Assembly (NCBI RefSeq): GCF_028689295.1
Contig: NZ_JAQTWL010000011.1
Span: forward strand, 53,580 to 117,579
Direction: 5' to 3'
DNA length: 64,000 bases
Origin: Rhodoferax sp.
GTDB taxonomy: Bacteria > Pseudomonadota > Gammaproteobacteria > Burkholderiales > Burkholderiaceae_C
A model generated the notes under the pieces. It saw nothing but the letters and a program-made list of their open reading frames with translations. It had not been told where the DNA came from and did no database searches. Made by a program: the position numbers and the translations under genes. Of this stretch, positions 36,533 to 59,631 are shown piece by piece; the stretch's first letter is position 1; each line of letters starts with the position of its first letter.

Positions 36533-37729
36533 GTGTCTGACTCGCGCCAACTCTGCGGTGCCGAGCTGGTCGCGGCCCTGCGCGAGAGCCGCCAACGCAC
36601 GCTGTTGCTGGTGGACGACTTGAGCCCCGCGCAGTGGAGTCCGATTAGACAGATTGGCATCAACCCGGTGGCGTGGGAGCTGGCGCACATCGCCTGGTTT
36701 GCAGAGTTCTGGATATTGCGAGGCCCCCATCATTGCGACGCGCAGGGCCTGGTGCACGCGGCGCGTCCAGCGCGCTTTGCCGGGCCGGATGGTTTGTTTG
36801 ACTCGGCGCGGCTGGCGCACGCCCAGCGCTGGAATGAGGCCATGCCAACACGCGCGGAACTGGAACCGATGCTGTCGGGCCAGTTGGAGACCTGCATCGC
36901 GTCGGTAGCGGCTGGCGCGGCCGAGTCCACCGATGCCGCGCAAGACCCGCTGTACTTCCATCGCCTGGCCCTGTTCCATGAGGATATGCACGCCGAAGCC
37001 CTTTGCTGGATGCGCTCTGCGCTGGAATACCACGTGCCTGTCGGGTTGACCATACCCCAGTTGCCAACCAGCCAGCCGCTGGCCGTGCCGGGTGCCGACA
37101 CCTGCGTCGGATGGCCCCCCGCGCAACCCGGTTTTGCTTTCGACAACGAATGCCCCGCCATGGCCGTTCGGGTGGACGGTTTCGAGATCGACAGCGCGCC
37201 GGTGAGCGCGGGCGCTTTTGCCCGCTTCGTCGAGGCCGGGGGCTATGACAACGCGCTGTATTGGCCAGAGGAGGCCGGGGCGTGGCGCGCGCAGTCGCGG
37301 CTGGCGCATCCGCAACAGTGGCGGCGCGCCTCGGGCGGCGGATGGCAGGCGCGCTGGTTCGACCAATGGCTGGCGCTGGACGGCACGGCACCGGTCATGC
37401 ACATCAACGCCTTCGAAGCGCAGGCCTACTGCCTGTGGGCCGGGCGGCGCCTGCCCAGCGCCAGCGAATGGGAATACGCGGCCAGCTCGCAATGCGACTT
37501 TCACTGGGGCCACAGCGTGTGGGAGTGGACATCGAGCGCCTTTGCGCCTTACCCCGGCTTCATGCCCGGCCCATATCACGCTTACTCGCAACCCTGGTTC
37601 GGCAACCACCGCGAGCTGCGCGGCGGTGCGTTCTCCAGCCACGCCCGCATGCACCATCCGCGCTACCGCAATTTTTTTGAGCCGCACCGCACGGATGTGT
37701 TTGCAGGTTTTCGAACGGTGACACTGTGA
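36533..37729 (+). CDS. senA: Selenoneine synthase SenA (EgtB-like DinB/FGE-sulfatase fusion)
   Basis: NPVAWELAHIAWFAEFWILR DinB His motif; C-terminal WEYAASSQCDFHWGHSVWEWTSSAFAPYPGFMPGPY..RELRGGAFSSHARMHHPRYRNFF; followed by senB and selD. Confidence 0.88.
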   Translation: MSDSRQLCGAELVAALRESRQRTLLLVDDLSPAQWSPIRQIGINPVAWELAHIAWFAEFWILRGPHHCDAQGLVHAARPARFAGPDGLFDSARLAHAQRWNEAMPTRAELEPMLSGQLETCIASVAAGAAESTDAAQDPLYFHRLALFHEDMHAEALCWMRSALEYHVPVGLTIPQLPTSQPLAVPGADTCVGWPPAQPGFAFDNECPAMAVRVDGFEIDSAPVSAGAFARFVEAGGYDNALYWPEEAGAWRAQSRLAHPQQWRRASGGGWQARWFDQWLALDGTAPVMHINAFEAQAYCLWAGRRLPSASEWEYAASSQCDFHWGHSVWEWTSSAFAPYPGFMPGPYHAYSQPWFGNHRELRGGAFSSHARMHHPRYRNFFEPHRTDVFAGFRTVTL

Positions 37730-38745
37730 GTTCAATTGAGCGCATGGCTCAGCGCATGACCCGTCCCCGCGTGCTCATCATCAGCCCAGCGGCTGCCTCT
37801 GCCAACAATGGCAATTGGCACACCGCGTGGCGCTGGTCGCGCATGTTGCGCCCGGCGTTCGATGCCACGATTGCCCTGGGATGGAACGGCGAACCTTTTG
37901 ACGTGATGCTGGCCCTGCATGCCCGGCGATCTGCCGAGTCCATCGCACGTTGGGCACGGTCCAAGGGCGCCGCGGAAAATGCACAAGGTCTTGGCGTGGT
38001 GTTGACCGGCACCGATTTGTACCGAGACATCCAATCCGACACTCAAGCGCAGGCCTCTTTGCAGTATGCCCGCCAGCTCGTGGTGCTGCAGGAGTGCGGT
38101 GCAGAAGCGCTTCCCCCTGCCTTGCGCCACAAGGCAAGGGTGATTTTTCAGTCCGCCGCAGCGCAAGAGGCGCTACCCAAGCCCACCACTGAGTTGCGGG
38201 TGCTGATGGCGGGACATTTGCGCGATGAGAAATCGCCACGAACCCTGTGGGATGCAGCCCGCATCCTCCAACCGCACACAGACATCTTTATCGACCACAT
38301 TGGCGAAGCGCTGGAGCCCGCGTTAGGCGCGCAAGCCCGCGCCTGCATGGTGGCGTGCCCGCAGTACCGCTGGCTGGGCGGCATGGCGCATGACACCACG
38401 CTGCAGGCAATTGCGCAGGCGCACGTGCTGGTGCACACCAGCCGTATGGAAGGCGGCGCGCAAGTGATTTTGGAGGCAGTGTGCAGTGGCACGCCGGTGC
38501 TGGCATCAAACATTCCCGGCAACGTGGGCATGCTGGGGGCGGACTATCGCGGTTACTTTGCGCTGGGCGACGCAACCGCACTGGCGGACTTGCTGCTGCG
38601 CTGCCGCGCGGAACTTGATCACGACAATGGCTTTTGTGCCCAGTTGTCCCGGCAGTGCGCCCTGCGCGTACCCCTGTTTTCACCCGCCACCGAGCAAGCC
38701 GCCGTGCGGGATTTGGTGAATGATTTACTCGATGCAAACCCCTGA
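37726..38745 (+). CDS. senB: Selenosugar synthase SenB (GT family)
   Basis: ISPAAASANNGNWHTAWRWSRML; glycosyltransferase C-terminus HTSRMEGGAQVILEAVCSGTPVLASNIPGN; ATGA overlap with senA. Confidence 0.87.
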   Translation: MSSIERMAQRMTRPRVLIISPAAASANNGNWHTAWRWSRMLRPAFDATIALGWNGEPFDVMLALHARRSAESIARWARSKGAAENAQGLGVVLTGTDLYRDIQSDTQAQASLQYARQLVVLQECGAEALPPALRHKARVIFQSAAAQEALPKPTTELRVLMAGHLRDEKSPRTLWDAARILQPHTDIFIDHIGEALEPALGAQARACMVACPQYRWLGGMAHDTTLQAIAQAHVLVHTSRMEGGAQVILEAVCSGTPVLASNIPGNVGMLGADYRGYFALGDATALADLLLRCRAELDHDNGFCAQLSRQCALRVPLFSPATEQAAVRDLVNDLLDANP

Positions 38746-41029
38746 ACAACCCATCCTGCGCGACATTGTTTTGGTCGGTGGCGGTCACAGCCATGTGGGG
38801 GTCATCAAAAGCTTTGGCATGCAGCCGATTCCCTGCGTGCGCCTGACCGTGATTTGTACCGACGTGCATACGCCTTATTCGGGCATGTTGCCGGGTTACG
38901 TGGCCGGGCATTACAGCTATGACGACGTGCACATCGACCTCAGTCGCCTGGCGGTGTTCGCCGGCGCGCGCCTGTACCGCGACGAGGTGATCGGGCTCGA
39001 CCGCGTCAACCGCCGTGTGCTGTGCCGCAACCGCCCGCCGGTGCCCTACGACGTGTTGTCGATCAACACCGGCTCCACGCCGCAACTCCACGATGTGCCG
39101 GGCGCTTTGCAAAACGCCATTGCCGTCAAGCCCATCACCCGCTTCAATGCGCGCTGGCTGGCGCTGCTTGAGCGCGTGCAGAAACACGTTGGCACAACCA
39201 CGGTCGCGGTGGTGGGCGCAGGTGCGGGCGGTGTGGAGTTGCTGCTGGCCATGCAATACCGCCTGCGCCATGAACTGCGCACACTGGGGCGCAACCCGAA
39301 TGATCTGGTGTTTCACCTGTTCACCAACAACGCCCACATTTTGCCCACCCATAACGCCCGCGTGCGCCGCACCTTTGACACGGTTTTGGCCGCGCGCGGT
39401 GTGCAGGTGCACTGCGATGCGGCGGTCACGCAAGTCTCGGCGGGGCAGGTGCAAACGGGCTCGGGCGAGGTGGTGCAGGCCGACGAGATCATTTGGGTCA
39501 CTCGTGCCGGTGGTGCCGCATGGCTCAAAGACACCGGCCTGGCACTGGATGCCGATGGTTTCATACAGGTCACAGATACCTTGCAAACCGTCACCGACCC
39601 CGTCATTTTTGCTGCTGGCGACATTGCCGCCATGGTGAACCATCCGCTGGAAAAAGCTGGCGTGTTTGCCGTGCGCCAAGGCCCCCCGCTGGCGCGCAAC
39701 CTGCGCATGAGTGTGCAGGGCGCGGCGCTCAAACCCTACCATCCGCAGCGGCGCTGGCTGGCGCTCATCAGCACTGGCAACCAGTACGCCGTGGCCTCGC
39801 GCGGCTGGCTCGGGTTTGCCGGGGCCTGGGTGTGGCGTTGGAAGGACTGGATCGACCGGGACTTTATGCGCAAGTTTCAGGACTTGGCGCCTATGGACGC
39901 CCACGCAAGGGGTGCGCACGCTGCATCGGCTAACATACCCGGCGCGGTGCAGCTCACCTCAGAAGAGTCTTTGCAAGCCATCTCCGCCATGGCCATGCGC
40001 TGCGGCGGCTGCGGCGCCAAGGTGGGGGCCACCGTGCTGTCGCGCGCGCTGGGCCAGTTGCACCCGGTGCAGCACGACGATGTGCTGATAGGCCTGAGCG
40101 ACCCCGACGATGCGGCGGTGGTGCGCGTGCCGCCGGGCAAGGCCATGGTGCATTCGGTGGACTTCTTCCGATCGTTCATTGACGATCCCTACCTGTTTGG
40201 CAAGGTTGCCGCCAACCACGCGCTGGGCGACCTCTGGGCCATGGGCGCGCAGGCGCAATCGGCCACGGCCATCGCCACCGTGCCCCCGGGCCTGGAGAGC
40301 AAGGTGGAAGACCTGCTGTTTCAGATGATGACCGGCGCGCTGGAGGTCTTGAACGAGGCCAACTGCGCGCTGGTGGGTGGCCACACCGGCGAGGGCAAGG
40401 AACTGGCGCTGGGCTTTGCCGTCAACGGCCTGATCGACGACGACCCGGCGCAGATTTTGCGCAAAAACGGCATGCGCGCGGGCGATGTGCTGATTCTGAC
40501 CAAACCGATTGGCACCGGCACCCTGTTTGCCGCCCACGCCCGCCTGGCCGCCAAGGGTCGCTGGATTGACGCCGCACTGCAGTCGATGGTGCTGTCCAAC
40601 CAGCGTGGCGCGCAGTGCCTGCGCGAATTCGGCGCTACCGCCTGCACCGACCTGACCGGTTTTGGTCTGCTGGGTCACCTGGTGGAAATGACTCGCCCCT
40701 CGGGTGTGGATGCAGAGATTGATTTGAACGCGCTGCCCCTGCTCGATGGCGCACAGGAATGCGTGGCTGCTGGCATCGTCAGCTCTCTGCAAAGCGCCAA
40801 TGTGCGGCTGCGCCACGCCCTGCGCAACCAGCAGGCGAAGGCGCACCACCCGCGTTACCCGCTGATTTTTGACCCGCAAACCGCAGGCGGACTGTTGGCC
40901 AGTGTTCCCGCAGACAGGGCAGATGCCTGCATTGCAGCACTGCGTGAACTGGGCTACGTTCATACGGCGGCAATTGGGCGGGTATTGACGCAAAGCGATG
41001 CGATGGAGCCGATCACGTTGTGCGGGTGA
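38732..41029 (+). CDS. selD: Selenide, water dikinase (SelD/SenC) fused to N-terminal FAD/NAD(P) oxidoreductase
   Basis: N-terminal DIVLVGGGHSHVGVIKSFG..VAVVGAGAGGVELLLAMQ; C-terminal MRCGGCGAKVGATVLSRALG..DDAAVVRVPPGKAMVHSVDFFRSFIDDPYLFGKVAANHALGDLWAMGA; Cys rather than Sec in the active-site region. Confidence 0.93.
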   Translation: MQTPEQPILRDIVLVGGGHSHVGVIKSFGMQPIPCVRLTVICTDVHTPYSGMLPGYVAGHYSYDDVHIDLSRLAVFAGARLYRDEVIGLDRVNRRVLCRNRPPVPYDVLSINTGSTPQLHDVPGALQNAIAVKPITRFNARWLALLERVQKHVGTTTVAVVGAGAGGVELLLAMQYRLRHELRTLGRNPNDLVFHLFTNNAHILPTHNARVRRTFDTVLAARGVQVHCDAAVTQVSAGQVQTGSGEVVQADEIIWVTRAGGAAWLKDTGLALDADGFIQVTDTLQTVTDPVIFAAGDIAAMVNHPLEKAGVFAVRQGPPLARNLRMSVQGAALKPYHPQRRWLALISTGNQYAVASRGWLGFAGAWVWRWKDWIDRDFMRKFQDLAPMDAHARGAHAASANIPGAVQLTSEESLQAISAMAMRCGGCGAKVGATVLSRALGQLHPVQHDDVLIGLSDPDDAAVVRVPPGKAMVHSVDFFRSFIDDPYLFGKVAANHALGDLWAMGAQAQSATAIATVPPGLESKVEDLLFQMMTGALEVLNEANCALVGGHTGEGKELALGFAVNGLIDDDPAQILRKNGMRAGDVLILTKPIGTGTLFAAHARLAAKGRWIDAALQSMVLSNQRGAQCLREFGATACTDLTGFGLLGHLVEMTRPSGVDAEIDLNALPLLDGAQECVAAGIVSSLQSANVRLRHALRNQQAKAHHPRYPLIFDPQTAGGLLASVPADRADACIAALRELGYVHTAAIGRVLTQSDAMEPITLCG

Positions 41030-41077
41030 GGCCTTGCGTTTGAAAATCAATCCATCAAGCCCAGGCGGCTCTATGGC

Positions 41078-42295
41078 CTACACCGGCGAACCCCTGCCCC
41101 CCGTGCCAGTCTGAACGTCGCTCGCCAGCCGGATACCGGTGAACTGCCAACAGGCGCTGGCCGCAAAGAAGTTGCGGTAAGTGGCGCGCGAGTGACCCGC
41201 AGGCGTGGCCACCGAGCCGCCACGCAGCACGTATTGATTGACCATGAATTTGCCGTTGTACTCACCCACTGCACCGGCCGCAGTGTGAAATCCGGGGTAG
41301 GGAGCATAGCTTGATGCCGTCCATTGCCACGCCGTGTCAAACAACTGGTTCAGCGCCGATGCAGAGTGGCTCAGTGCGGCGTGTTCCCACTCAAACTCGG
41401 TCGGCAAACGCGCACTGGCCCAGCGCGCATAGGCATCGGCCTCGTAATACGACACATGGCGCACTGGTTGGTGCGGGTCGAGTGCAATCATCCCCTGCAG
41501 CGTGAACGCCTGCCAGGTTGTTGCGCAGCTGCGCCAATAGAGTGGGTGCGCACGGTTTTGCGCCGTGCGCCAATCCCAGCCTTCGGCCAGCCAGTAAACC
41601 GGGTCGTCATACCCGCCAGCGGCAACGAAAACTGCGAATTCATCGTTGCTCACCAACCGGCTGGCCAATTGATAAGGCTGCAAAAACACCCGATGTTGTG
41701 GACGCTCATTGTCAAAACAAAAACCGTCGCCGACATGTCCTACGTCCACCAAACCCCCATCAAATCGCAACCAGGACAAAGGCGTTGCCTCGCCTGGCAC
41801 GATGGATCCGACTTGATAGGAGGGCTGCATCGGGTTGCACGACAGCAGGTGCAGCATGTCGGTCAGCAGCAGCTCCTGGTGCTGTTGTTCATGCTGCAGG
41901 CCGAGCGTGACCATTGTCAGCAGCTCGGCATCCGGTCCACAGTCTGTCAACAATTGCACTATTCGTTGATCAACATCGGCACGATAGGCCAGCACCTGAT
42001 CGAGACCGGGGCGGGTGAGCAGGCCGCGTTGCGCGCGCGGGTGTTTGTCGCCCACCGCGTTGTAGTAAGAATTGAACAGCACCCTGAAGAGGGCATCAAA
42101 AGGCTTGAAGCCCGCCTGCCAGCGCTCCAGCACAAAGGTTTCAAAAAACCAGGTGGTGTGCGCCAGATGCCATTTGGCAGGACTGGCCTCAAGCATGGAC
42201 TGTACACAACAGTCTTCGGCACTCAGCGGGGCAGCCAGTGCCAGCGTGTGCTGGCGCACCGCCTGATAGTCTGAAGCCAATGACGCAAGATTCAC
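41078..42295 (-). CDS. egtB: Ergothioneine biosynthesis protein EgtB
   Basis: KWHLAHTTWFFETFVLERW; HEQQHQELLLTDMLHLL; C-terminal WQWTASSYAPYPGFHTAAGAVGEYNGKFMVNQYVLRGGSVATPAGHSRATYRNFF. Confidence 0.95.
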   Translation of the reverse strand: MNLASLASDYQAVRQHTLALAAPLSAEDCCVQSMLEASPAKWHLAHTTWFFETFVLERWQAGFKPFDALFRVLFNSYYNAVGDKHPRAQRGLLTRPGLDQVLAYRADVDQRIVQLLTDCGPDAELLTMVTLGLQHEQQHQELLLTDMLHLLSCNPMQPSYQVGSIVPGEATPLSWLRFDGGLVDVGHVGDGFCFDNERPQHRVFLQPYQLASRLVSNDEFAVFVAAGGYDDPVYWLAEGWDWRTAQNRAHPLYWRSCATTWQAFTLQGMIALDPHQPVRHVSYYEADAYARWASARLPTEFEWEHAALSHSASALNQLFDTAWQWTASSYAPYPGFHTAAGAVGEYNGKFMVNQYVLRGGSVATPAGHSRATYRNFFAASACWQFTGIRLASDVQTGTGGRGSPV

Positions 42296-42316
42296 TTTGA
42301 GACTCCAGAAAGTACC

Positions 42317-43228
42317 TCATGGGTGTGCCAGGATCACGGCAAACCAGTTGTCCGGATCGGTCCAGACTTGGGTTTGCGACAGTCCCGCACGCTTGAGTAG
42401 TTCAACGAAATCCGCTACCTGGTACTTGTAGCTGTTCTCGGTATGGATGCGCTCACCTTGGGCAAAGCTGCGCCCGCCCCCTGGCCAGTGCACATCGGTG
42501 GCAGTGCTGGCTTGAAGGTGCATCTCAATACGCGACGCTACCGGGTTAAAAAAGGCCAGGTGCTGCCACTGCGTTACATCAAAATCACTGCCGACGACCC
42601 GATTGACGTGCTTGAGCACATTCAGGTTGAAAGCGGCGGTGACCCCTTGCGCGTCGTCGTAGGCAGCGTGCAGAACCGCCATGTCTTTGACCAAGTCAAC
42701 GCCGATCAGCAATGCGCCGTCGTCGGCAAGCAAACCGCGCAAACGGGTGACTAAGGCTAGGGCCTGCGGTGGATCAAAGTTGCCGATGGACGAGCCGGGG
42801 TAAAACACCAGTCGCTGCGCCATTGGCAAATCCACGGGTAGTGTGATTGCACGCGTCAGGTCTGCCACCACAGCGCTGACTTCAACACCCGGCAAAGCAG
42901 CGCGCAAACCAGCCACGGCTTGATGCAGAAAATCTTCCGAGATATCCAGCGCCACAAAAAGTCTGGGGTGAATCAGCTCACACAACGCACGCGCTTTTTC
43001 GCAATTGCCCGCACCCGGCTCGATCACCGTCACACCCGCACCCATGCGGCAGGCAATGTCTGAAGCATGCGTGGTCATGATCTGGCGCTCGACTCGCGTC
43101 GGGTAATACTCTGGCAGCAGGGTGATCTGCTCAAACAGCGCAGAGCCTGCTGCATCGTAAAAATACTTGGGTGAAATGCTGGCCTGTGGCAGCAGCAGGC
43201 CCTGCAAAATTTCGGCTTGTGGTGTCAT
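42317..43228 (-). CDS. egtD: L-histidine N(alpha)-methyltransferase EgtD
   Basis: SPKYFYDAAGSALFEQITLLPEYYPTRVE; VIEPGAGNCEKARALCE; FYPGSSIGNFDPPQA. Confidence 0.95.
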   Translation of the reverse strand: MTPQAEILQGLLLPQASISPKYFYDAAGSALFEQITLLPEYYPTRVERQIMTTHASDIACRMGAGVTVIEPGAGNCEKARALCELIHPRLFVALDISEDFLHQAVAGLRAALPGVEVSAVVADLTRAITLPVDLPMAQRLVFYPGSSIGNFDPPQALALVTRLRGLLADDGALLIGVDLVKDMAVLHAAYDDAQGVTAAFNLNVLKHVNRVVGSDFDVTQWQHLAFFNPVASRIEMHLQASTATDVHWPGGGRSFAQGERIHTENSYKYQVADFVELLKRAGLSQTQVWTDPDNWFAVILAHP

Positions 43229-47361: not shown

Positions 47362-48189
47362 CTACTGCGCCTGTGTGCCCTTGAGCCATTCACCAGGGGC
47401 GCAACCCAATTTGCGCTGGAAGGCGCGGGTGAGGGCGCTTGGACTGCCATACCCCACTTCACCAGCGACATGCTTGAGCGCCAGCCCGCGTTGCAGCAAG
47501 CCCTGCGCCAGCAGGACGCGCCAGCTCGCCAGGTAGTCGGCTGGGGTTTCGCCGGTGACCTGATGGAAATGCACTGCAAAACGGGCGCGTGACATGCCTG
47601 CCAGAGCGGCCATGTCCTCCAGTCGCCACGCCTGTTCCGGTTTCAGGTGCATGGCATTGAGCGCCTTGGCCAGGCGGGCATCGGCCAAGCCCGCGAGCGC
47701 GCCGCCGCGCGTCAGGTGTTGCGCAATACAGTAGCGCAGCAGCTGAATCATCAGCACCTCACACAAGCGGTCGAGCACCGCCTGACGGCCGTCCTGCTCG
47801 GCAAAGGCCTCGTCGAACATCAGCCCAAGCAAGGCTTCCACGCCCGGCAACCGCCGCAATTCCACCATAACAACGGATGGCAGCGAGGCGGTGATGGGGT
47901 TGCTGCTGCCACCCCCGAACTGCACCGTGCCGCACACCACGTCGGCACCGCTGCGCTCGTCAGCGATCAGCCGGTGGGTGTCGGGGCGCGGCAAAAATAA
48001 CAGCGCCGGCTCAGTGATGGTGAAGCTCCCGGGGCGCACCCCCATGACTAGCACCGGACCGCGCCGGATCAGGTGCAGGTGGCCGCGCACGCTGTCTTGC
48101 TGGAAATCGTGGATGCCGCAGATGTTGCCGGTATAAAACACACCGGCGTGCAACGAGAAGCGGTTGAGTAGGGTGGTGAGTTGGTCCAT
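47362..48189 (-). CDS. AraC family transcriptional regulator with N-terminal cupin
   Basis: FSLHAGVFYTGNICGIHDFQQD..HLIRRGPVLVMG; HTH MAALAGMSRARFAVHFHQVTGETPADYLASWRVLLAQGLL. Confidence 0.92.
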   Translation of the reverse strand: MDQLTTLLNRFSLHAGVFYTGNICGIHDFQQDSVRGHLHLIRRGPVLVMGVRPGSFTITEPALLFLPRPDTHRLIADERSGADVVCGTVQFGGGSSNPITASLPSVVMVELRRLPGVEALLGLMFDEAFAEQDGRQAVLDRLCEVLMIQLLRYCIAQHLTRGGALAGLADARLAKALNAMHLKPEQAWRLEDMAALAGMSRARFAVHFHQVTGETPADYLASWRVLLAQGLLQRGLALKHVAGEVGYGSPSALTRAFQRKLGCAPGEWLKGTQAQ

Positions 48190-48309: not shown

Positions 48310-49023
48310 ATGAACGCACAACCTTCCGCCATCCGCTCTGCCATTCTGGCTTCTGTTTTTGGTATGGCCTTCGGCGCTCCTGCCGCCTTTGCCCAAAGCC
48401 CCTGCGCGCCGCGCAACCCATGTGCGCCACGCAAGATGAACCCATGTGCAGCCAAAAATCCATGCGCCGCGAAAAACCCGTGTGCTGCCAAGAACCCTTG
48501 CGCAGCCAGTGGCAAAGTGGATGTCAAGCTGGTGACTCGTCCAGCCGGCACGCAGCTAGCCAAAGGCAATTCGGCCGAGCTCATCGCCGAGGGTAAAAAA
48601 CTGTTTTCCGACACCAAGCTCAGCACCAACGGGCTGTCGTGCAATTCATGCCACTTCAATGGCAACTCTTACCTCAACACGTTCGCCAAGCCCTATCCGC
48701 ACTTTGTGCAAATGGCCGATGACCGTGGCGGCATGAAAAAAATCGCCCTTGATGAAATGGTGCAATTCTGCATGGTGGTGCCGATGGCCGCCAAACCGCT
48801 GGCCTGGGATTCGCGTGAACTCGCTGCCTTGACCGCTTACACCGCCGAAGTGCAGAAAACCTTCAAACCCAAGAGCGGTGCCGCCGCTGCCAATCCGTGT
48901 GCTGCCAAGAACCCTTGCACTGCCAAGAACCCTTGCACTGCCAAGAACCCTTGCACTGCCAAGAACCCTTGCGCGGCAAAAAATCCGTGTGCTGCCAAAA
49001 ATCCCTGCGCCGCCAAGAAGTAA
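48310..49023 (+). CDS. c-type cytochrome flanked by NPCAAK-like Cys-rich hexapeptide repeats
   Basis: Signal peptide ..AAFAQ; single CNSCH heme motif (48640-48654); Met ligand candidates; NPC[AT]AK repeats at both ends. Confidence 0.88.
   Translation: MNAQPSAIRSAILASVFGMAFGAPAAFAQSPCAPRNPCAPRKMNPCAAKNPCAAKNPCAAKNPCAASGKVDVKLVTRPAGTQLAKGNSAELIAEGKKLFSDTKLSTNGLSCNSCHFNGNSYLNTFAKPYPHFVQMADDRGGMKKIALDEMVQFCMVVPMAAKPLAWDSRELAALTAYTAEVQKTFKPKSGAAAANPCAAKNPCTAKNPCTAKNPCTAKNPCAAKNPCAAKNPCAAKK
48397..48510 (+). repeat. N-terminal Pro-Cys hexapeptide repeat block (6 units, one KM interruption)
   Basis: SPCAPR-NPCAPR-KM-NPCAAK-NPCAAK-NPCAAK-NPCAAS. Confidence 0.9.
48892..49020 (+). repeat. C-terminal Pro-Cys hexapeptide repeat block (7 units)
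   Basis: NPCAAK-NPCTAK-NPCTAK-NPCTAK-NPCAAK-NPCAAK-NPCAAKK; 18-bp DNA unit AAGAACCCTTGCACTGCC repeats exactly. Confidence 0.93.
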
Positions 49024-49041: not shown

Positions 49042-49740
49042 ATGGATGATCTGCACGACCTGACAACCGACGAGCTTCTCGCCATGCGCGCAGCGGGCCA
49101 GGACGTCATGGCGTGTTACCGCGTGCTGGACAAGGGCGGACTCAACGTCGTCGGTGAGATGCTGCGCGGCCAGGGCGAGTTCATCGAGCTGAACCACTTC
49201 CCCGACGACGACGTGTTCGACCGTGACAGCCAGTCGCAGTATTACTACCACGCGCACCGCGGGCTCGACGGTGAACACGGCCACTTTCATACCTTTGTGC
49301 GCCAGCCCGGCATGCCTGAGGGCATGGTGCCCGTGGTCTGCCAGGCCAGCGAGCCCTGGCCGCAAGGGACTGACGCGCTTTGCCACCTGATTGCCATCTC
49401 GATGAACGCCTATGGTTTCCCCACGGGCTTGTTCACCACCAACCGCTGGGTGACCGACGAGGCCTGGTACAGCGCCGCTGACGCCGCCCGGTTGCTGGCG
49501 CGCTTTCGTATCGATCACGCCGCGCCGTCATGGCCGGTGAACCGCTGGATCAGCGCCATGTTCGTGCTGTTTCGCCCGCAAATGGCAAGTCTGCTGATGC
49601 AGCGCGACGTGACCGTGGCGAACTGGGCTGCGCGGCATCCGGCGGCCGACGTGTTCGAAGACCGCGCGCTCGACATCACCAGCGCAATGCCCATTTCAGT
49701 CGAACAGCAGATCAGTCGTGTCGAGGCTCTGCTGGGCTGA
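49042..49740 (+). CDS. Conserved protein of unknown function (DUF6969-like)
   Basis: 232-aa ORF directly downstream of the cytochrome; HFPDDDVFDRDSQSQYYYHAHRG..EHGHFHTF.. The DUF number is recalled, not verified. Confidence 0.7.
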   Translation: MDDLHDLTTDELLAMRAAGQDVMACYRVLDKGGLNVVGEMLRGQGEFIELNHFPDDDVFDRDSQSQYYYHAHRGLDGEHGHFHTFVRQPGMPEGMVPVVCQASEPWPQGTDALCHLIAISMNAYGFPTGLFTTNRWVTDEAWYSAADAARLLARFRIDHAAPSWPVNRWISAMFVLFRPQMASLLMQRDVTVANWAARHPAADVFEDRALDITSAMPISVEQQISRVEALLG

Positions 49741-49786: not shown

Positions 49787-50269
49787 ATGTCTTACCTGAA
49801 TATTTCACAAGTTCGCGCATGGCTTTTGCCCATGGTGCTGCTAGCTGCCAGTGCCGCTTACGCGCAAGCGCCGACCGTGCCCGGCACGCAGACGCTGGCC
49901 AGCAAACATGATTTCAAAACGCTGGTTGCGCGCACGGAAGCAGCCATCGGTGCGCAAAAAATGGGTTTGGTGGCATCGGCCAGCGCCAGCGCGGGTGCTG
50001 CCGGGCGCGGTATCACCATTCCTGGCAACACGGTGCTGATGGTGTTTCGCAACGACTTCGCCGTGCGCATGTTGCAGGCCAGCGTGCCCGCCGGTATCGA
50101 GGCGCCGATCCGGCTTTATGTGACCGAAAACGCCGATGGCACGGCCAGCCTGAGCTACCGCACTCCCAGCGCGGTGTTTGCCCCCTACAAGTCAGAGCAG
50201 CTCGATGCGATGGCGGTTGAGCTCGACCCCATCTTTGAGCGCATCGTGCGCGATGCCACCGGCGGTTAG
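49787..50269 (+). CDS. DUF302 domain-containing secreted protein
   Basis: Signal peptide ..AAYAQA; HDFKTLVARTEAAIGAQKMGLVA..PGNTVLMVFRNDFAVRMLQASVPAGIEAPIRLYV. Confidence 0.87.
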   Translation: MSYLNISQVRAWLLPMVLLAASAAYAQAPTVPGTQTLASKHDFKTLVARTEAAIGAQKMGLVASASASAGAAGRGITIPGNTVLMVFRNDFAVRMLQASVPAGIEAPIRLYVTENADGTASLSYRTPSAVFAPYKSEQLDAMAVELDPIFERIVRDATGG

Positions 50270-51461
50270 TCAAAGTCGGGTGCTGCCAGCCTGGCCCGCC
50301 GGACGCCAGCCTATGCCACTGGTGGCGGGCCTTGCCACCTTGCTGCTGGTAGCTGTGCGCCTGGGTGCTGATGGCTGGCGACAGGTTGCCCTTTGGCTGA
50401 CCGGTCTGGTTCTGGGCGTGGCGTTGTACCACGCATCGTTCGGTTTTGCCAACGCCTACCGGCGCATGCTGCTGGCGCGCGACATGCGTGGTGTGCAGGC
50501 GCAATTGCTGTTGCTGGCATTGACCACGCTGTGCTTTGCGCCGGTTTTTGCCAATGGTACAGCCTTCGGGCAGGTGTTGGGCGGCGCCTGGGCGCCGGTG
50601 GGCGTGTCGGTGGCAGTGGGCGCGTTCATGTTCGGCATTGGCATGCAGATCGCCGGCGGTTGTGGCTCGGGCACGCTGTACACCGCGGGCGGCGGCAGCT
50701 TGCGCATGATGCTGGTGCTGGTGAGCGCCTGTGCGGGTTCGTTCTGGGCCAGCCTGCACATGGGCTGGTGGCAACAACTGCCCTCAAAAGATGCCATCGT
50801 GCTGGCCGACCTGCTGGGCTGGCGCATGGCTTTGGCGCTGCAATTGGGTATCTTCGGTTTGCTGTCATTTTTACTGTGGCGGCTGGCGCGGCCTGTCGCG
50901 CCAGTACCAAGGCCAGCGACTAACGAATCGACAACCAGCGCCGTGCTGGCGCGGGTATTTTCTGGCCCCTGGCCGGTCATGGTCGCTGCCGTGGTGCTCG
51001 CACTCGGGAACGTGAGCACGTTGCTGCTGGCGGGTCATCCGTGGTCAATCACCTGGGGTTTCACGCTCTGGGGGGCCAAGGTGGCCGGGTGGCTGGGCTG
51101 GCGGCCAGCGCCCGACGGCTTCTGGCAGGGTGACTTTCAAAGCGGCGCGCTGGCTGGCGGTGTGCTCGATGACACCACGTCGATGATGGACCTGGCCATC
51201 ATGCTGGGTGCTTTGTGTGCCGCGTCGCTGGCTGGTCGGTTCGCACCGCGCTGGGACTTTCCTTGGCGCTCGCTGCTGGCCGCGCTGCTCGGCGGTCTGC
51301 TGCTGGGTTACGGCTCGCGCATTGCCTATGGCTGCAATATTGGCGCGTTTGTGTCGGGGGTGGCCTCGGGCAGCCTGCATGGCTGGTTGTGGATTACCGC
51401 GGCCTTGCCGGGTACCTGGTTGGGCATTCGCCTGCGCCGGCGATTTGGCATGGCGGATTGA
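50253..51461 (+). CDS. YeeE/YedE family (TsuA-like) membrane transporter
   Basis: GMQIAGGCGSGTLYTAGGGS and GSRIAYGCNIGAFVSGVASGSLHGWLW signature Cys motifs; about 10 TM segments. Confidence 0.9.
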   Translation: MPPAVSQSRVLPAWPAGRQPMPLVAGLATLLLVAVRLGADGWRQVALWLTGLVLGVALYHASFGFANAYRRMLLARDMRGVQAQLLLLALTTLCFAPVFANGTAFGQVLGGAWAPVGVSVAVGAFMFGIGMQIAGGCGSGTLYTAGGGSLRMMLVLVSACAGSFWASLHMGWWQQLPSKDAIVLADLLGWRMALALQLGIFGLLSFLLWRLARPVAPVPRPATNESTTSAVLARVFSGPWPVMVAAVVLALGNVSTLLLAGHPWSITWGFTLWGAKVAGWLGWRPAPDGFWQGDFQSGALAGGVLDDTTSMMDLAIMLGALCAASLAGRFAPRWDFPWRSLLAALLGGLLLGYGSRIAYGCNIGAFVSGVASGSLHGWLWITAALPGTWLGIRLRRRFGMAD

Positions 51462-55028: not shown

Positions 55029-55871
55029 TCAATCCGGATTCTGGCGTGCCATTTTTTCACCATTGAGCCACTGCGTTGGCGAACAACCTAGCTTTCGAAT
55101 AAACGCACGTGTGAGTGCATTGGCACTGCCGTAGCCGACATTGTCAGCCACGTGTTTGAGCTGTAAGCCTTGCTTGAGCAGCCGCTGCGCTGCCATGACT
55201 CGCCAAGTCGCCATATAGTTCGCCGGAGTTTCGCCGGTGATGGTACGGAACCGCACGACAAAGCGCGCACGTGACATACCTGCCAATGCGGCCAAACTCA
55301 TCAGATTGCGCTTGCTGGCGGGGTCTTCATGAATGGCTGCAATGGCTTTGGCAAGTCGCGCATCAGCCAGCCCCGCCAATGTGCCGCCCTGAGTTAAACC
55401 CTGGTCAATGCAATGGCGCAACAGCCGGATCATCAGCACCTCACACAGACGATCAAGCACTGCCTGACGGCCGTCATTGTTGGCAAAGGCTTCATCAAAC
55501 ATCAACCCCAACAGTTCGTGCGCACCTGGCAAAGCAGATAGTTCAATCATCACAAGATCGGGCAAGGAGTCGGCTACCGGATTTCTGCGCCCCCCGCCAA
55601 ACTGAACCGTCGCACACACGATGTCCGCGCCAGTGCGTTCATCCGCTATCAACCGGTGAGTATGAGGACGTGGCAAAAACAACAAGGTGGGTTCTATGAC
55701 ATCTAAAACTTGCTGTTTCACACCAATGATCCGCACCGGACCGCGCCTGATGAGATGAATATGTCCATGCAGGCTATCTTGCGCAAAGTCATGAATGCCA
55801 CAGATGTTGCCAGTGTAAAAAACACTCGCGTGCAGCGAAAAGTGCTCAAGTAATGCGGAGAGTCTGTCCAT
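55029..55871 (-). CDS. AraC family transcriptional regulator with N-terminal cupin (paralogue of 47362-48189)
   Basis: MDRLSALLEHFSLHASVFYTGNICGIHDFAQDSLHGHIHLIRRGPVRIIG; closely parallels the other AraC protein through the HTH. Confidence 0.93.
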   Translation of the reverse strand: MDRLSALLEHFSLHASVFYTGNICGIHDFAQDSLHGHIHLIRRGPVRIIGVKQQVLDVIEPTLLFLPRPHTHRLIADERTGADIVCATVQFGGGRRNPVADSLPDLVMIELSALPGAHELLGLMFDEAFANNDGRQAVLDRLCEVLMIRLLRHCIDQGLTQGGTLAGLADARLAKAIAAIHEDPASKRNLMSLAALAGMSRARFVVRFRTITGETPANYMATWRVMAAQRLLKQGLQLKHVADNVGYGSANALTRAFIRKLGCSPTQWLNGEKMARQNPD

Positions 55872-57094: not shown

Positions 57095-57418
57095 ATGACA
57101 ACCGCATCCCAATCTCCTGTGACCCGCCGTACCGCCTCTGCCGCTGGCCTGGCCCTGGCCATGAGTGCCGCTTTGGGCATTGCCGCCGCGCCCACGGCTG
57201 CACAGGCTGCTGACACCGAAAAGTGCTTTGGCGTGGCGCTCAAAGGCAAAAACGACTGCAAAGCCGGTGCTGGCACCACGTGCGCTGGCACTTCCAAAGT
57301 GGACTACCAGGGCAACGCCTGGTCGATGGTGCCCAAGGGCACGTGCGAAAAAACCGTGTCCAAGACCTCACCCACCGGCCATGGCCAGCTCAAAGAGTTC
57401 AAGGAAGTCAAGGCCTGA
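57095..57418 (+). CDS. bufA1: Bufferin-type RiPP precursor (DUF2282, BufA1-like)
   Basis: Signal-like N-terminus [29 protein letters not shown]; four-Cys core [45 protein letters not shown]; followed by DUF692/DUF2063/DoxX genes. Confidence 0.9.
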
Positions 57419-57447
57419 TAAGGTCACAGTCAACTGGAGCACCCGGT

Positions 57448-58344
57448 ATGGCCGCAAGCGTCATGTTGCCCCTGCTGACCCCGGGTGCAGCTGCCTCCAC
57501 TCTGCCCGCAAGGGCCGGGGTGGGGCTCAAGCCCGAGCATTTTCAGGACATTCTGGCCACCGAGCCCGACATCGGCTTCTTCGAAGTCCATGCCGAAAAT
57601 TACATGGTGGCCGGCGGGCCGTTTCACCATTACCTGACCCGTATCCGCGAGCGCTACCCGCTCTCGATCCACGGCGTCGGCCTGTCCATTGGCGCCGATG
57701 CGCCGCTGGATACCGACCATCTGGATGCGCTGGCGATGCTGCTCAAGCGTTACCAGCCGCAATCCTTTTCCGAGCACCTGGCCTGGTCCACCCATGGCAA
57801 GGCGTTTCTGAACGACCTGCTGCCGTTGCCGTACAACACGGCCAGCTTGCAGCGGGTGTGCGACCACATCGACCAGGTGCAGGTGCACCTGCAGCGGCGC
57901 ATGTTGCTGGAAAATCCGGCCACTTATGTCGAGTTTGCGGCGTCCACCTGGGAAGAGGGCGCCTTTTTGACCGAGGTGGTGCGCCGCACCGGTTGCGGTT
58001 TGCTGCTGGACGTGAACAACGTGCATGTGTGCAGCATCAACCACCAGCGTGATGCGCACGCCGCCATCCGTGCCATGCCGCTGCACGCGGTGGGCGAGAT
58101 TCACCTGGCCGGCTTTGCCGATCAAACCGATGGCAACGGCGATCCGCTGCTGATCGACAGCCACGGCGCGCCAGTGGCGCAGGCGGTGTGGGCGCTTTAT
58201 GACTTCACGCTGGGACTGACCGGCGCCCAGCCCACCTTGCTTGAGCGTGACAACGACATCCCGGTCTGGCCGGTGCTGCTCTCGGAAGCCGGTTTGGCCG
58301 AGCAGCGTTTGCAAATGCTGCTGGCTGAAGAGGTCATGGCATGA
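57448..58344 (+). CDS. bufB1: DUF692/MNIO-family multinuclear non-heme iron oxidase (BufB1-like)
   Basis: [69 protein letters not shown]. Confidence 0.93.
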
Positions 58345-59126
58345 GCTACCAGACCACCTTCGCGCAAGCCTTGCTGAACCCGGAGTTGCCTTGCCCCGGC
58401 TGCTTGACCACCTGTAACGGCTCGGACCCCGCCACGCGTTTTGCGGTCTATCGCAACAATGTCACGGTGTCGCTGATCGACGCGCTGGCTGACACCTTTC
58501 CTGTCGTGCAAGAAATGGTGGGTGAAGATTTCTTTCGCGCCATGGCCAAGGTGTTTGTGCAGGCCCAGCCGCCGCGTTCGCGCCTCATGGCGTATTACGG
58601 GGACCAGTTCGCTGATTTTGTCAGCAGCTTCCCACCTGCCGCGTTGGTGCCATATCTGGCCGATGTCGCACGCCTGGAAATGGCCCGGGTTCAGGCTTAC
58701 CACGCGGCGGATGTGCCACCCATCAACACCGACATCTTGCACCATGCGCTGGCCGAGCCGGAGCAACTCACGGTGTTGAGCCTGGTGTTGCACCCGTCGG
58801 TGCAGGTGCTGTCGTCGCCCTATGCCATTGATTCGCTGTGGGCGGCGCATCAGGGGGCGCTGTGCATCAGCACGGTCGATCCCGACGTGCCCCAGGCGGT
58901 GCTGGTCTTCAGGCACGGGCTCGACGTGGACACGCTGGCATTGGACGCTGCCACGGCGCTGTTTGTCACCCGCCTGCAAGACGGTGTGAGCCTGCTGGTG
59001 GCCACGGGCGAAGCCAGCACGATGGATGCCGAGTTCGATTTGACCCACACCCTGGGCTTGTTGCTGCGTTGGCAGCTCATCACCCACACCACCTTCGGAG
59101 CCCCACCTCATGAACACACGCACTGA
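58341..59126 (+). CDS. bufC1: DUF2063 (BufC1/HvfC-like) RiPP recognition partner
   Basis: [65 protein letters not shown] overlap with the DUF692 gene. Confidence 0.92.
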
Positions 59127-59631
59127 ACCCTTGAGCGCCACATCAGCGCGTGGTTTGATCCCCAATTTGATGCAGCGCTTTGTCGCCGTCTGCACGCGCA
59201 TTCCCCATACGCTGGTGGCGTTGTTGGCACGCTTCTCGATTGCAGCGGTATTCTGGAAGTCCGGTGAGACCAAAATCCAGGGTTTTGCCATCGACATCGT
59301 CAACCAGGAATTCACGCTGGGCTGGCCGCGCCTGTCGGACTCGGTGGTGGATTTGTTCCGCGAAGAATACCAGCTGCCCATGATCCCGCCGGAAATTGCC
59401 GCCACAATGGCCGCCTTTGCCGAGCATTTTTTACCGCTGCTGCTCTTGCTCGGGCTGGCCACCCGCCTGTCTGCGCTGGCGCTGCTGGGCATGACGCTGA
59501 CCATCCAGTTGTTCGTTTATCCCGACGCCTATCCCACCCACGGCACCTGGGCCGCCGTGCTGTTGCTGCTGATGGTGAACGGCGCGGGCAAACTGTCGCT
59601 GGACCACTGGATCGCGCGGCGCTACACCTGA
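59110..59631 (+). CDS. DoxX family membrane protein (BufD-like)
   Basis: LVALLARFSIAAVFWKSGETKIQGF..EHFLPLLLLLGLATRLSALALLGMTLTIQLFVYPDAYPTHGTWAAVLLLLM; overlaps the DUF2063 stop. Confidence 0.9.
   Translation: MNTRTEPLSATSARGLIPNLMQRFVAVCTRIPHTLVALLARFSIAAVFWKSGETKIQGFAIDIVNQEFTLGWPRLSDSVVDLFREEYQLPMIPPEIAATMAAFAEHFLPLLLLLGLATRLSALALLGMTLTIQLFVYPDAYPTHGTWAAVLLLLMVNGAGKLSLDHWIARRYT

Follow-up and report, generated by a model that had tools for sequence, protein, structure and literature searches.

A SoxA/TsdA-like c-type cytochrome with cysteine-repeat arms, encoded next to DUF6969 and co-inherited with secreted cysteine-repeat peptides

A cytochrome between two cysteine-repeat arms

We analysed a 64,000-nucleotide stretch of a Rhodoferax sp. 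genome (the window; coordinates refer to it unless another locus is named) and, within it, a gene at 48310..49023 on the plus strand. The gene encodes a 237-residue monoheme c-type cytochrome with NPC-repeat arms, as judged from its open reading frame (ORF), its match to PF21342 and homologous loci. A Sec-type signal peptide (residues 1-28; 48310..48393, with cleavage after AFA inferred by eye) is followed by an N-terminal arm of six S/N-P-C units (48397..48510), a folded heme core (48517..48873) and a C-terminal arm of seven N-P-C units (48892..49020), all on the same strand. The original prediction, made from the sequence, had placed six and seven Pro-Cys units around one CNSCH motif in a secreted protein, and the ORF, the repeat positions and residue shuffles all confirmed this arrangement.

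The Pro-Cys (PC) units lie at residues 31, 37, 45, 51, 57 and 63 of the N-terminal arm and at residues 196, 202, 208, 214, 220, 226 and 232 of the C-terminal arm. The spacing is six residues in 10 of the 12 gaps, the other two being an eight-residue step at KM and the stretch occupied by the core. Residue shuffling, repeated 20,000 times, reached at most 8 PC and 2 six-residue spacings; the real protein has 13 and 10. Codon differences between the units were mostly synonymous (190 versus 59 non-synonymous, in 66 pairs), showing that the repeat is maintained as protein; three of the C-terminal units are identical, i.e. recent copies. Outside CXXCH the cytochrome has 14 cysteines, 13 in the PC units and C154 in the core, the last of which was overlooked in the earlier count of 13 non-heme cysteines. 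The NPCAAK units retain no CxxC pairing. Both arms are of low confidence in the AlphaFold2 model (the predicted local distance difference test score, pLDDT, is <50 at residues 9-56), with disorder predicted for the N-terminal arm and low confidence or disorder for the C-terminal one. The NPC pattern occurs in the host genome in this gene only.

The search for NPCAAK-repeat proteins and their neighbours suggested by the original prediction was carried out by scanning GTDB species; it yielded 57 loci, with DUF6969 as the conserved neighbour directly downstream. Fifty-five homologues were usable for counting arms and 43 were aligned. The hosts are mostly beta- and gammaproteobacteria (Gallionella, Sideroxydans, Rhodoferax-like and others), joined by alphaproteobacteria, Nitrospinota, Methylomirabilota and Tectomicrobia/Entotheonella. 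The armed cytochrome appears to be a previously undescribed family. NPCAAKNPC, related repeat strings, DUF6969 and PF22308 are not mentioned in the literature searched, which left most subscription papers outside its scope.

The original prediction had been made to depend on conservation of both the cysteines and the repeat number. The cysteine arms are indeed kept: by script, PC units precede and follow the heme in 54 of the 55 homologues, with a median of five per side, and the remaining one (L043) is also armed on both sides, its cysteine motif having been missed by the script. The repeat number is variable, with 3-19 PC units at the N-terminus and 0-13 at the C-terminus. NPCAAK is the commonest repeat type, followed by CNPCNPC and CGPC.

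The arms can also be found apart from the core. About 33 loci additionally encode a separate exported peptide consisting solely of repeats. Locus L067 has a bare core without arms and, on the opposite strand, a separate KCAPKC peptide adjoining DUF6969; L068 has only an N-terminal arm, Cys-rich and of a non-NPC type, and also encodes a separate Cys-repeat peptide; L120 and L121 lack the C-terminal arm and have a separate NPC peptide. In L113 (5747-6892, minus strand) an NPC arm is fused to a cytochrome P460-like domain, adjoining DUF6969 (PF16694, E 1.6e-4, under the curated cut-off). Like the cytochrome, this is a c-type heme protein with an NPC arm and a DUF6969 neighbour, but its heme domain is a different one; the identical arm type suggests that the arm is a module. 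The small Cys-repeat peptides matched no family in an NCBIfam search. One secreted NPC-only peptide (L066:9202-9429, minus strand; 72 residues from its Met) has CcdA and extracytoplasmic function (ECF) sigma factor genes near it, in a genome where neither the cytochrome core nor DUF6969 was detected.

The wide variation in repeat number and the three freshly duplicated units would suit a structural or low-complexity element without cargo, serving in disulfide cross-linking, adhesion or surface attachment. We consider this very unlikely, as the same repeats form separate peptides beside DUF6969 in distant genomes and, in L113, an arm is fused to a heme domain of another type.

Kinship of the heme core with SoxA and TsdA

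The core passes the gathering score of the Pfam family PF21342, SoxA-TsdA_cyt-c (37.9 bits against 27; E 1.8e-9). Against the PDB, a profile of the 43 homologues matched SoxA (1h31, E 4e-5), and a search with the single sequence of the cytochrome gave a weak match to TsdA. A Foldseek search with the AlphaFold2 model, in which the core has a pLDDT of mostly 93-98, returned TsdA (4wq7) first and SoxA (1h31) next, with probability 1.00; the modest E-values (1e-3 to 1e-1) are probably due to the arms. The residues invariant among the 43 sequences are P78, G95, C111, C114, H115, P130, M135, C154, P158, W166 and Y177, and thus include the CNSCH heme-binding motif (C111, C114 and H115, residues 111-115; 48640..48654, plus strand). 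Cys154 (48769..48771, plus strand) falls on the SoxA/TsdA-domain cysteine, which in TsdA is the heme ligand, in both the profile and the single-sequence alignment. It lies 39 residues after H115, as does, at about 40 residues downstream of CXXCH, the conserved cysteine of the superfamily. We predict that it is the axial heme ligand.

By sequence and predicted fold the cytochrome core is a member of the SoxA/TsdA superfamily, yet it is neither SoxA nor TsdA, since two residues of the active site have changed. Arg119, invariant in TsdA and SoxA (PMC4423706), has its counterpart four residues before the ligand cysteine, and this substrate-binding position is here Met150 (Met in 42 of the 43 sequences and Val in one). 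The equivalent of TsdA Ser127 is Pro158 throughout the family. The ligand cysteine of TsdA forms an S-thiosulfonate intermediate (PMC4423706). With these binding residues altered, thiosulfate binding of the known type is doubtful and thiosulfate is an unlikely substrate in the manner of TsdA.

Like SoxA of the SoxAX complex in the Sox pathway, the cytochrome is exported, has a c-type heme domain with a downstream cysteine at the axial-ligand position and is related in profile and fold; unlike SoxA, it has a single heme, Met in place of the invariant Arg, built-in Cys arms and a location outside the sox cluster. Its score for the SoxA equivalog TIGR04484 of NCBIfam is 34.4 bits, against a cut-off of 110. 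Likewise, the core aligns with the N-terminal catalytic domain of the TsdA thiosulfate dehydrogenase, including the Cys ligand, but the single CXXCH leaves it without the second cytochrome c domain of TsdA, it has Met and Pro at the positions of Arg119 and Ser127, and it bears arms. The resemblance to the SoxY carrier is by analogy only, both having cysteines on a flexible exported segment; in contrast to SoxY, the cytochrome ends in NPCAAKK rather than GGCGG, has many cysteines and is fused to a heme domain. We rejected the possibility that the cytochrome is the SoxA of its host, because the canonical sox cluster of this genome sits on a separate contig (C20). The SoxY of this genome is a normal one with GGCGG.

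DUF6969, secreted repeat peptides and other neighbours

In the window the cytochrome gene is followed, all on the plus strand, by genes for DUF6969 (49042..49740, 18 bp downstream; PF22308, E 9.5e-83), a secreted DUF302 protein (49787..50269; PF03625, E 1.4e-7) and a YeeE/YedE (Sulf_transp) transporter of uncertain start (50178..51461; PF04143, E 5.8e-62). Of 300 genomes sampled from the order, 12 have the core and 20 have DUF6969; 10 have both (Fisher p = 8e-12), one of these through a partial hit at the edge of a contig. Nine genomes have the NPC pattern, 8 of them together with the core.

DUF6969 is linked to Cys-repeat peptides even where the NPC cytochrome is absent. In a phylum-wide sample of 21 genes selected by DUF6969 alone, 18 have a gene for a secreted Cys-repeat peptide or for a Cys-armed cytochrome no more than ~1.4 kb away (manual count); L119, one of the three misses, starts 130 bases from the contig end. 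Accepting any small Cys-rich ORF in the vicinity of DUF6969 gave a control rate of 318/600 and was abandoned for a strict motif: a peptide with this motif is immediately upstream of 28 of 59 DUF6969 ORFs, versus 33 of the 1862 remaining ORFs that are 200 residues or longer in the same loci. The repeat types beside DUF6969 differ greatly (NPCAAK, KCAPKC, PCVKTKAGG, CCAAEG). Clusters in L079, L080, L083, L127 and L128 combine YeeE/YedE, peptide, DUF6969 and rhodanese genes. In L079 (4300-7282) and L080 (5580-8559), a YeeE/YedE pair, an NPC-type peptide, DUF6969 and rhodanese lie directly upstream of sox, with the NPC cytochrome absent; in L081 and L082 sox genes are also within the stretch examined. 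The host genome itself has a second DUF6969 copy (L088, contig C5, 5443-7936) after two KCGACKAKC-type secreted peptides, with thioredoxin and CcdA genes following. Upstream of DUF6969 in L124 and L125 are extremely Cys-rich low-complexity peptides (CCAAEG, CAACAAG) that are lipoprotein-like.

Ten residues of DUF6969 are invariant (H52, D57, D60, H70, H72, H81, H83, H115, N134 and R188), six of them His, and this conservation suggests that the protein probably binds metal. The predicted model is confident (mean pLDDT 94.6; predicted template modelling score, pTM, 0.92), and against the PDB it had no fold match (best probability 0.12), nor did the sequence profile find anything there. The linkage of DUF6969 to the peptides is genetic; modification of the repeats in the manner of ribosomally synthesized and post-translationally modified peptides (RiPPs) is possible. 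Further, DUF6969 might be a metalloenzyme with a new fold and modify cysteines both in the exported repeat peptides and in the cytochrome arms. It would then define a RiPP-like class that does not depend on MNIO enzymes, with a respiratory heme protein that bears the modified residues and employs them in sulfur or metal chemistry. We regard this as conceivable, though rather doubtful. The arrangement resembles the MNIO-modified RiPPs known as bufferins in that a Sec-exported Cys-motif precursor adjoins a candidate metalloenzyme of the cytoplasm and sigma factor genes are often present too (PMC12452194), but the partner here is DUF6969, without sequence or fold match among solved structures. 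The MNIO landscape paper does not mention NPC or cytochrome. The original prediction had also invoked an MNIO system encoded 8 kb away. This MNIO has its own precursor (57095-57418), and an MNIO lies within 4.5 kb of the cytochrome in 2 loci only; we therefore rejected it as a partner in favour of the conserved DUF6969.

We counted neighbours within ~4.5 kb of the cytochrome, using gene calls by a simple codon model that make the counts approximate. DUF6969 was found in 29 loci, ECF sigma factor in 23, DUF302 in 19, YeeE/YedE in 16, CcdA-like proteins and thioredoxin in 15 each, HD-GYP in 14, an AraC-like regulator in 12, and a multiheme cytochrome and an unclassified secreted protein in 11 each; zf-HC2 genes accompany ECF sigma near many loci. 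Among 120 otherwise unclassified neighbours, pyridine-nucleotide-disulphide oxidoreductases and redoxins were the commonest Pfam families, and no copper or metal-efflux family was among the top 25. A copper cluster was rejected on this ground, which covers the top 25 families of the unclassified genes only.

These neighbours bear on two other explanations. The main rival is that arms and peptides are periplasmic thiolate metal buffers (for Cu, Zn, Cd or similar) with a bufferin-like role, the heme domain only anchoring them or sensing redox. The abundance and regular spacing of cysteines in exported peptides that are flexible, rich in Lys and of very varied repeat types would agree with this, as would the nearby ECF sigma and zf-HC2 genes, which resemble bufferin clusters; sigma-factor genes are among the described components of such clusters (PMC12452194). 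Nevertheless we find a buffer unlikely, since disulfide reductases and redoxins rather than metal-efflux families lead the neighbours, the recurring partners handle sulfur, and buffering needs no invariant Cys154 on a SoxA-type heme core. Alternatively, the arms could be redox dithiol/disulfide carriers without sulfur cargo, the heme oxidising their thiols or taking their electrons in oxidative protein folding or thiol homeostasis of the periplasm. The adjacent CcdA and thioredoxin genes and the frequent disulphide oxidoreductases and redoxins speak for such carriers, which, however, leave the YeeE/YedE and rhodanese partners unexplained and sit poorly with NPCAAK units that keep no CxxC pairing; we judge this improbable.

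A candidate sulfur relay and further clusters in the window

Among the functions listed in the original prediction, thiol-based chemistry of the arms fits the neighbours; modification of the arm cysteines and metal capture by the arms are both possible. Our own preference, which is tentative, is that the cytochrome is a periplasmic thiol- or sulfur-relay protein with in-cis Cys acceptor arms, the repeats of which are prepared by DUF6969. A SoxA/TsdA-type Cys-ligated heme would lie between flexible arms that present many cysteines and serve this heme in cis as the carrier cysteine of SoxY serves SoxA in trans. In an oxidative step at the heme domain, Cys154 would receive a reduced sulfur species, which would be sulfide, sulfane sulfur or an arm thiol and not thiosulfate, and from there it would pass to cysteines of the arms and of the separate Cys-repeat peptides. 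The cysteines would then be regenerated by CcdA/thioredoxin or by rhodanese, and sulfur would be carried inward by YeeE/YedE. DUF6969 would have worked on the Cys repeats in the cytoplasm before export, by modification or maturation.

The sulfur relay would account together for the SoxA-like Cys-heme, the cysteines that resemble a carrier and the neighbours that handle sulfur, and is supported by the separate Cys-repeat peptide that accompanies the armless core of L067 and the N-arm-only core of L068. In Hyphomicrobium, YeeE proteins of the SoxT type bring in sulfur that is to be oxidised (PMC11582611). Ordinary thiosulfate oxidation, in contrast, is argued against by the changed active site and by the lack of association with SoxB.

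Several observations weigh against the relay. The best SoxA match of the core is the N-terminal heme domain of SoxA, which we take not to be the catalytic one. SoxB (above cut-off), present in 140 of the 300 genomes, does not track the cytochrome (8 of the 12 genomes with the core versus 132 of the 288 others, p = 0.24), so that dependence of the cytochrome on Sox was rejected. The ECF sigma and zf-HC2 neighbours equally fit a metal or stress response, and most of the homologues and loci come from metagenome-assembled genomes.

Co-inheritance of the cytochrome with Cys-repeat peptides and DUF6969 suggests a new route for sulfur or metal handling outside the cell membrane. If the relay is correct, Cys-ligated heme proteins gain a form bearing its own multi-cysteine acceptor arms. 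The results also point to an unstudied partnership of secreted Cys-repeat peptides with DUF6969 across several groups of bacteria, among them some that cycle iron and sulfur, and give a function-oriented lead for DUF6969, DUF302 and YeeE/YedE proteins.

Divergent from the cytochrome is a gene for an AraC-like regulator (47362..48189, minus strand; named by eye), the homologues of which make up the 12 loci counted above. A similar AraC-like regulator (55032-55871) lies upstream of a bufferin-type cluster (57095-59631), which is separate from the NPC cytochrome and comprises the DUF2282-like precursor (57095-57418), the MNIO gene (ending at 58344), a DUF2063-like gene (58341-59126) and a DoxX-like gene (59110-59631). 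Further upstream, at 36533-43228, we recognized by eye EgtB/SenA-like, glycosyltransferase (SenB-like) and SelD-like fusion (SenC-like) genes, with EgtB-like and EgtD-like genes on the opposite strand; from these labels, this region is possibly a selenoneine and ergothioneine cluster.
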